Assembly (NCBI GenBank): GCA_014695255.1
Contig: JACJNX010000028.1
Span: 62,001-126,000, forward strand
Length of the DNA stretch: 64,000 bases
Source: Cyanobacteria bacterium FACHB-63
GTDB taxonomy: Bacteria > Cyanobacteriota > Cyanobacteriia > Leptolyngbyales > Leptolyngbyaceae
Reading direction: 5' to 3'
In this document: positions 16,705 through 22,389 of the stretch, piece by piece
Layout: each line of letters starts with the position of its first letter
Position numbering within the stretch: the stretch's first letter is position 1
Translations under genes and position numbers: made by a program
Notes under the pieces: generated by a model
Told to the model about the DNA's origin: nothing
The model's input: the letters and a program-made list of their open reading frames with translations, nothing else
Databases searched by the model: none

Positions 16705-20659
<3,955 letters not shown>

Positions 20660-21742
20660 ATGAAAAAAGCCCGTCGTCAAAACCGTCGTCAAAACCATTG
20701 TCGTCCCAATCGCAGGGATTTTTGCCCGATTTGTCATATTGTGCCGCCGCATGTCACCGATCGCATTATCGTTAACGGCAACGAAGCTCAGCGTGAGTGG
20801 GCATTACAGAATTTGCGGGCTTCAGAGCAGTTTCGAGGACGACGAGAAGCCGTGGGAGCCGTTCATTTCATGGCTGCCGCTAACGAAAAACGTCGCACGA
20901 TTTACACCGCAGAAAACGATACTGACTTGCCGGGGAAAATTGTGCGCGGTGAAGGTGCGGCAGCAGTCGAGGATGTTGCCGTGAATGAAGCGTATGACGG
21001 ATCAGGAGCGACTTACGATTTCTTTGAGGAAATCTTCCAGCGAAACTCGATCGATGGTTTTGGAATGCGCTTAGATTCTACGGTTCATTATGGAGAGCGA
21101 TACAATAACGCCTTCTGGAACGGCAGCCAGATGGTTTACGGCGATGGAGATGGTGAACTTTTTAATCGGTTTACGATTTCGATCGATGTAATCGGGCATG
21201 AACTGACGCATGGCGTGACCCAAAGCGAAGCCGCATTGATCTACAGAGGACAATCGGGCGCATTGAACGAGTCTTTTTCCGATGTGTTTGGCAGTTTGAT
21301 TAAACAGAGAGTTTTGAATCAGACGGCTGATCAGGCAGATTGGTTAATCGGCGAAGGGTTGCTAACGTCAAAGGTGAATGGTCAAGCGCTGCGATCGATG
21401 AAGGCTCCCGGAACCGCTTACGACGATCCGGTACTGGGGAAAGATCCGCAACCTGGGGACATGAGTAAGATCTACACAGGCAGAGCGGATAACGGGGGTG
21501 TGCATATCAATTCCGGCATTCCCAATCGAGCGTTCTATTTGACTGCAACGGCGATCGGCGGTTACGCGTGGGAAAAAGCCGGAAAGATTTGGTATGTCGC
21601 GCTTACAGAGCGGTTACGTCCCTCGTCTAATTTCCGTACTGCTGCACGAGTCACTTCAACGATCGCGGCTGAGCTATACGGTGCAAACAGTGCTGAACAA
21701 AAAGCGGTTCAGAACGCCTGGAAAACAGTTGGTGTTAGCTAA
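20660..21742 (+). CDS. Protealysin-like M4 (thermolysin-family) metalloprotease
   Basis: A 360-aa zinc protease of family M4 with a short precursor of the protealysin type. HELTH (180-184) holds two zinc ligands and the catalytic Glu, and the third ligand is Glu204 in GALNESFSD. The catalytic His282 lies in HINSG. The N-terminus is very basic (KKARRQNRRQNHC), followed by a Cys-x2-Cys and an IVPPH motif (27-31) typical of the short propeptide in this group. There is no classical signal peptide. The ATG at 20660 has GGAG 6 bases upstream; an upstream GTG at 20576 is less likely. The inhibitor-like gene follows by 22 bp. Confidence 0.92.
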   Translation: MKKARRQNRRQNHCRPNRRDFCPICHIVPPHVTDRIIVNGNEAQREWALQNLRASEQFRGRREAVGAVHFMAAANEKRRTIYTAENDTDLPGKIVRGEGAAAVEDVAVNEAYDGSGATYDFFEEIFQRNSIDGFGMRLDSTVHYGERYNNAFWNGSQMVYGDGDGELFNRFTISIDVIGHELTHGVTQSEAALIYRGQSGALNESFSDVFGSLIKQRVLNQTADQADWLIGEGLLTSKVNGQALRSMKAPGTAYDDPVLGKDPQPGDMSKIYTGRADNGGVHINSGIPNRAFYLTATAIGGYAWEKAGKIWYVALTERLRPSSNFRTAARVTSTIAAELYGANSAEQKAVQNAWKTVGVS

Positions 21743-21764
21743 TTAAAGAAAGGGGGAGAGATCG

Positions 21765-22055
21765 ATGCGCGTCACGCTTGAACAAAGTGGAGGCTTTGCG
21801 GGATTGATGATCACAAAAACGATCGATACTCAAAATCTCTCCTCATCCGAAGCCAAAGAGTTAGAAGAGATGATTCAATCCTCCAATTTCTTTCAAGTAA
21901 CCTCGGTCGTGGAGGCTTTTCCGCAGCCCGATCGATTTGGGTATGTGCTGACGGTCGAGATGGAGGGGCGGACGCATTCGATCGAGATGAGCGAAACGAA
22001 TATGCCCGAATCGGTGCGATCGATTGTGAAGTGGGTGCAGGCGCGATCGCGTTAA
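21765..22055 (+). CDS. Emfourin-like protease inhibitor
   Basis: A 96-aa protein matching the small partner encoded beside protealysin-like proteases, for which emfourin is the characterised example. It begins with the MRVTLEQSGGFAGL strand, has a helical LSSSEAKELEEMIQ segment and an FGYVLTVEMEGRTHSIEM hairpin, and ends in a short helix. It has a GGGGGAGA-like ribosome-binding site and no signal peptide. Gene order, 22-bp spacing and sequence pattern support inhibition of the upstream protease; the inhibition itself is inferred. Confidence 0.8.
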   Translation: MRVTLEQSGGFAGLMITKTIDTQNLSSSEAKELEEMIQSSNFFQVTSVVEAFPQPDRFGYVLTVEMEGRTHSIEMSETNMPESVRSIVKWVQARSR

Positions 22056-22116
22056 TTGGCGATGAATTTAGAGAAAGCGATCGCGGTGGTGTTGAAGCAC
22101 GATCGTTTTGTCGCTG

Positions 22117-22389
22117 TTGAGTGTTTAGGATTCGCCGTTGAGTGTTTAGGATTCGCCGTTGAGTATTTGTGACTCGTCGTTGAGTATTTGTGACTCACCG
22201 TCGAGTGTTTAGGATTCGCCGTTGAGTATTTGTGACTCGCCGTTGAGTATTTGTGACTCGCCGTTGAGTATTTGTGACTCACCGTCGAGTGTTTAGGATT
22301 CGCCGTTGAGTATTTGTGACTCGTCGTTGAGTGTTTGTGACTCATCGTTGAGTATTTGTGACTCACCGTCGAGTGTTTGTGACTCATCG
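22117..22389. repeat. 21-bp minisatellite, 13 units
   Basis: Thirteen contiguous 21-bp units, each close to TTGAGTATTTGTGACTCGCC plus G, with two alternating internal forms (GTGTTTAGGATTCGC and GTATTTGTGACTC). Unit boundaries fall every 21 bp from 22117. Because 21 is a multiple of three, open frames run through it on the minus strand, but two different frames are open and neither looks like a real protein. A degenerate fourteenth unit follows. Confidence 0.92.

Follow-up and report, generated by a model that had tools for sequence, protein, structure and literature searches.

The window analysed here, a stretch of 64,000 nucleotides from the genome of Cyanobacteria bacterium FACHB-63, carries two neighbouring genes on its forward strand, and both reading frames were recovered where the initial annotation had placed them (20660-21742 and 21765-22055). 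The first encodes a protealysin-like M4 metalloprotease precursor of 360 aa, as judged from Pfam, the best solved relative and the model of a homologue. The second encodes a 96-aa emfourin-family protein, a likely inhibitor, recognised by Pfam and by a match of the family profile to the solved emfourin 6zyg. Direct reading of the intergenic gap of 22 bp (21743..21764, forward strand) revealed a ribosome-binding-like GGGGGAG stretch at 21752-21758. Scans of the locus for promoters, terminators and Rfam families returned nothing above chance. The divergent neighbour on the reverse strand (16705..20109) is apcE, the gene of the phycobilisome core-membrane linker, which probably does not belong to the module. 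Shortly after the emfourin gene, positions 22111-22385 hold thirteen copies of a 21-bp tandem repeat with a higher-order period of 84.

The protease frame opens with an ATG at 20660, and its product begins MKKARRQNRRQNHCRPNRRDFCPICHIVPPH. Its description as protealysin-like is borne out by the Pfam domains Peptidase_M4 (E=2.5e-32) and Peptidase_M4_C (E=2.1e-59) and by its best solved relative, the protealysin precursor 2vqx, which matches residues 26-359 with E=8.2e-124. The propeptide spans approximately residues 27-66 (20738..20857, forward strand), with a C-terminal limit that is approximate; it was placed by alignment to 2vqx and by a PLN_propep match over residues 25-52 (E=6.4e-6), which at 26.3 bits lies 1.8 bits under the cut-off of 28.1. 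This short propeptide contains the PP motif of PLN_propep. The HExxH motif and third-ligand glutamate of M4 catalytic domains are likewise present: the zinc-binding and catalytic HELTH motif occupies residues 180-184 (21197..21211, forward strand), followed on the same strand by Glu204 (21269..21271), which we take from thermolysin homology to be the third zinc ligand, and His282 (21503..21505), presumably, on the same homology, the equivalent of the thermolysin transition-state histidine. All these residues are intact, and their columns are invariant across 64 aligned sequences. Peptidase_M4_C and Emfourin each have a single match in the 7.23-Mb genome (179 contigs). In comparisons with four same-genus relatives, the protease gave dN/dS ratios of 0.094, 0.044, 0.044 and 0.066, and emfourin gave 0.181, 0.154, 0.132 and 0.196; these values are rough for three of the four relatives because dS is near or above 1 there. 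Both genes are intact and under purifying selection.

The initial annotation had also proposed an emfourin-like inhibitor next to the protease, and this putative assignment is upheld by a Pfam Emfourin match with E=2.5e-22 and 79.5 bits against a cut-off of 27. The emfourin family profile matched 6zyg with E=3.7e-4, and a single-sequence search with the window protein gave no 6zyg match; the protein is thus only distantly related to the Serratia emfourin. Its structural model reached a pLDDT of 90.6, and in a Foldseek search 6zyg was the sole match at E<=0.001 (8.6e-4, TM 0.52/0.46). When the model was compared by VIA with 6zyg, an NMR entry, we obtained a Z of 5.5 and an rmsd of 5.7 over 81 residues. 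Chains of Mago nashi from the exon junction complex ranked above 6zyg, with Z of 8.3-9.5 and, for the best (Z 9.5), an rmsd of 2.8 over 93 residues. Streptomyces subtilisin inhibitor and sermetstatin resemble the emfourin model weakly in structure (Z 4.0-4.4), score below Mago nashi, and showed no sequence kinship to emfourin in the searches made. Emfourin-like segments were also seen in longer proteins: a 712-aa frame (L028:1039-3174) has a Pfam emfourin match near its C-terminus and two such stretches by the profile built here, and 12 genomes of the family of genome G278 have similar weak emfourin matches under the cut-off, in frames of 185-900 aa.

No signal stretch was found in the protease, in keeping with the initial annotation: the highest 12-residue Kyte-Doolittle mean within residues 1-60 was 1.17. 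The same measure reached 2.05 and 2.10 in L050 and L051, two larger M4 proteins of cyanobacteria whose N-termini resemble signals; a third comparison protein, L054, scored 0.59 and therefore provides no positive control. The window protease has the catalytic fold and zinc site of the secreted M4 enzymes thermolysin, aureolysin and elastase. Thermolysin-like secreted M4 proteases carry signal peptides and long propeptides, whereas the window protease has neither. Starting instead at an in-frame GTG (20576) would lengthen the protein by 28 residues, so that a misplaced start codon could in principle have hidden the signal of a secreted protease. However, the extension brings no hydrophobic stretch, and no signal peptide was seen with either start codon; moreover, in the same-genus loci L170 and L175 the frame has no start codon ahead of the Met that corresponds to the ATG at 20660, and protealysin is itself intracellular. 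By these comparisons a GTG start is unlikely, and we regard secretion through an overlooked signal as extremely improbable.

The window pair belongs to a known kind, the protealysin-emfourin operon of Serratia. As in Serratia proteamaculans, where protealysin (Pln) and emfourin (M4in) are encoded in one operon, the protease has no signal peptide and a short propeptide with a PP motif. To compare the fold, we used a homologous pair (L033) modelled as one chain with stops read through, which gave a mean pLDDT of 86.2 and a pTM of 0.71, both domains being confident folds. The protease part including the propeptide superimposed on 2vqx with a Z of 49.8 and an rmsd of 1.3 over 321 residues, and the two share 56-59% identity where they align. 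The VIA matches listed for this chain were M4 and other zinc-peptidase chains, with no emfourin among them.

We next consider how widely the two genes travel together. A scan of genome contigs with the protease yielded at least 586 confirmed relatives, of which the best 80 were kept as loci; their record titles include Cyanobacteria, Chloroflexi, Acidobacteria, Proteobacteria, Bacteroidetes, Actinobacteria and archaea. The emfourin profile built for this analysis found the inhibitor gene in 73 of these best 80 loci. It follows the protease within 500 bp and in the same orientation in 57, precedes it at up to that distance and likewise on the same strand in 9, and is arranged otherwise in 7, distances being taken between matched regions. 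Among the seven loci lacking emfourin, the contig ends soon after the protease in L060, L086 and L124, and L063 and L075 have no emfourin in about 6 kb downstream of the protease. Several relatives occur in other settings. One protealysin-like frame (L114:2693-4900) continues for about 360 residues past the M4 domain with no Pfam match at E<=0.01, in a locus with no emfourin. Seven Streptomyces phage records encode a protealysin-like metalloprotease of 37-40% identity; in the one inspected (L225:2564-3463), no neighbour is annotated as an inhibitor, by record annotation rather than by the emfourin profile. A close relative with 66.5% identity (L226:2992-4071) is encoded by a plasmid typed as conjugative, pC052_A of Nostoc sp. 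C052.

In a phylum sample of 386 genomes, we found emfourin in 22 and Peptidase_M4_C in 26, and all 22 were among the 26 (Fisher 3.8e-32, a test that ignores relatedness). The four genomes with M4 and no emfourin (G097, G197, G237 and G308) have lower-scoring matches that are probably other M4 proteins. The two genes lie apart in G011, G118, G340 and G382. The pairing looks functional because every one of the 22 emfourin genomes has an M4 protease, four of them with the genes apart; this co-occurrence across the phylum, unlinked cases included, is good evidence that selection acts on the pairing itself. Of the 42 genomes in the window's own family, 25 have emfourin and 24 have M4, and only G413 is discordant. 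In G396-G399 the stretch around emfourin contains no protease, but one is encoded elsewhere in the genome. The module is thus patchy in Cyanobacteria (22/386) yet common in one large family, that of G278, where emfourin scores over the cut-off in 128 of 192 genomes. The initial annotation had called it rarely noted in cyanobacteria. That may hold for the literature, but as a statement about occurrence it does not fit the G278 family. The text of PMC7311988 makes no mention of cyanobacteria.

We consider it likely, with a probability of about 0.78, that the pair is a protealysin-emfourin module, with a cytoplasmic protease held under a double lock. Its zymogen processing, 1:1 inhibition and activation on lysis would follow the pattern of Serratia. 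Serratia protealysin is described in PMC6778150 as accumulating as an inactive precursor that is activated after lysis, its first cut taking place intracellularly, immediately before the PP motif. PMC9505478 reports that Serratia emfourin forms a 1:1 complex with protealysin at the active-site region, and that cultures without emfourin have 20-30% fewer viable cells at equal density. By analogy, the window protease, which lacks a signal peptide, would be synthesised as a zymogen held inactive by its short propeptide. A first self-clip after His26, at H|IVPPH, would shed the basic Cys-containing tip, and the remainder of the propeptide would be lost later. Emfourin, encoded 22 bp downstream, would bind the active-site region of any enzyme maturing inside the cell. 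Because propeptide and emfourin would both restrain it, the enzyme would work mainly when these locks fail, most probably on lysis, or where the inhibitor is diluted or outnumbered. On the Serratia analogy, release on lysis would be its likeliest use.

The N-terminal tip is where the cyanobacterial proteins depart from protealysin. The initial annotation had read this basic, Cys-containing N-terminus as replacing a secretion signal. We do not follow that reading, because the signal-less state is normal for this kind, protealysin itself accumulating in the cell as a precursor. Its second suggestion, autoprocessing at IVPPH, fares better: the site aligns with the known protealysin self-cut site, and a cut is predicted there. 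The tip (residues 1-26; 20660..20737, forward strand) lies upstream of the aligned position and is expected to be removed first. It holds nine Lys/Arg, one Asp/Glu, and Cys14, Cys22 and Cys25, so that a cut at His26|Ile27 would remove all three cysteines and most of the early positive charge. In the sequence CPICHIVPPH (20723..20752, forward strand), identified by pattern count and alignment, a CxxC is fused to the conserved PP motif, with the predicted cut after His26. The cyanobacterial form thus has a basic tip with CPxC(C/H) before the cut, unlike protealysin, which reads SVIPPY with Ser at the cut.

A CxxC immediately before the predicted cut was found in 60 of 76 distinct cyanobacterial protease sequences (64 of 76 when Cxx-Tyr is counted too) and in 0 of 42 others, in a pattern count over sequences of which many are related and hence not independent. 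Cys occupies the cut position in 66/76 cyanobacterial and 25/42 other sequences, and His does so in 5/76 cyanobacterial sequences, the window's among them. A short tip is common in non-cyanobacterial proteases, for example MHRHSIFCILPPH. Many members of the family thus have Cys at the cut; what marks the cyanobacterial form is the additional CxxC, which usually comes with a longer basic tip. As read from these alignments, the tip is a lineage-specific variation of the cyanobacterial members.

This cysteine cluster could provide a third latch in the cyanobacterial zymogen, an idea we hold to be rather doubtful. Here CPxC(C/H), at P5, P2 and P1, would bind zinc or form disulfides, clipping, and activation along with it, would become metal- or redox-dependent, and emfourin would act as a back-up. 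Residues 1-23 of the modelled homologue have a pLDDT below 50, so the model neither backs nor contradicts a cysteine lock, and a literature search on a cysteine switch in M4 peptidases found no paper. That zinc or a disulfide controls the first cut is at present a guess. If true, activation would follow cellular redox or metal conditions, as shaped by light, oxygen or lysis.

The adjacency of apcE raises a different possibility, that the enzyme is a housekeeping or stress protease degrading phycobilisome components under emfourin control. The divergent apcE-protease-emfourin order recurs in four genera (the window and L154, L155, L157, L160, L161 and L174), where most other neighbours differ between genera. 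Across the eight stretches compared, the further neighbours in common were those of the window and G405, of L155 and L160/L161, and of L160/L161 and L178; one 105-aa ORF also links L174 and L155. In G413, which has no M4_C match in its genome, an emfourin-like ORF (L178:9992-10261) still lies beside apcE, being either an inhibitor left without its enzyme or one kept for another target. Outside the family, Dendronalium phyllosphericum has a phycobilisome-linker-like match (L065:1184-1627; 35-37% identity to apcE repeats) at a distance of about 4.4 kb from its protease.

Despite this recurrence, apcE stands beside the pair in only 6 of the 24 protease-bearing genomes of the window's family (the window, G405, G185, G289, G394 and G412), a count in which some of the other genomes are on contigs too short to tell. 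The same-genus genomes G402, G403, G404 and G408 have another arrangement, and no apcE match turned up in fifteen stretches, each at most 20 kb long, taken from other families (L179-L193). We also considered co-regulation with apcE through a shared conserved promoter and rejected it. The conserved block upstream of apcE is kept in G402, G403, G404 and G408, where the protease lies elsewhere; hence this DNA is apcE's own and provides no evidence for the protease. The core 9-mer of the block had no exact match in the more distant G386, G397, G401 and G409. We take the apcE adjacency to be an old linkage and not proof of a shared role, and a function in phycobilisome turnover appears very unlikely.

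The initial annotation had further suggested that such proteases might be injected by contractile systems. Under this proposal, a contractile injection system would deliver the protease into neighbours, and emfourin would shield sister cells; a role in interbacterial competition has been put forward for the Serratia pair (PMC9505478). A search for injection genes in the genome, advised with the suggestion, did find four Phage_sheath_1 matches, but all of them lie on contigs C155, C6 and C83 and none on the window's contig, C101. At the phylum level, 16 of the 22 genomes with emfourin also had a sheath gene, compared with 56 of the 364 without emfourin (Fisher 1.4e-8). The corresponding figures in the G278 family were 107 of 130, two of the 130 having emfourin only under the cut-off, against 29 of 62 (Fisher 1.1e-6). 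Both comparisons use matches at E<=0.001, with overlaps counted by hand and relatedness ignored. However, emfourin genomes are larger: among those of at least 6 Mb in the G278 family, 106 of 126 have a sheath gene, and among the 20 of 62 emfourin-negative genomes listed for that family, sheath genes occurred in 7 of 8 of at least 6 Mb against 4 of 12 smaller ones. On this partial check, covering 20 of the 62 negatives, sheath co-occurrence may follow genome size.

The neighbourhood and the protein itself also speak against injection. No sheath-like ORF was found in 212 non-sheath loci (many of about 3 kb, several overlapping), in a search that used the genome's own four sheath proteins and could miss distant sheaths. 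Putative effectors of the Anabaena contractile system carry DUF4157 (PMC8894136). The window protease showed no DUF4157 domain, with none at E<=1, although effectors without DUF4157 may exist. Contractile injection is thus unsupported by neighbourhood or cargo domain, and its co-occurrence signal has been only partly checked against genome size; we consider it unlikely and set the delivery proposal aside in favour of the doubly locked cytoplasmic module.

That reading places a module studied mainly in Serratia in photosynthetic, often multicellular bacteria. There, an enzyme kept in reserve behind two locks and released by lysis might matter for cell death, the recycling of nutrients or defence, and the cysteine cluster at the activation site offers a lineage-specific, simple and testable difference.
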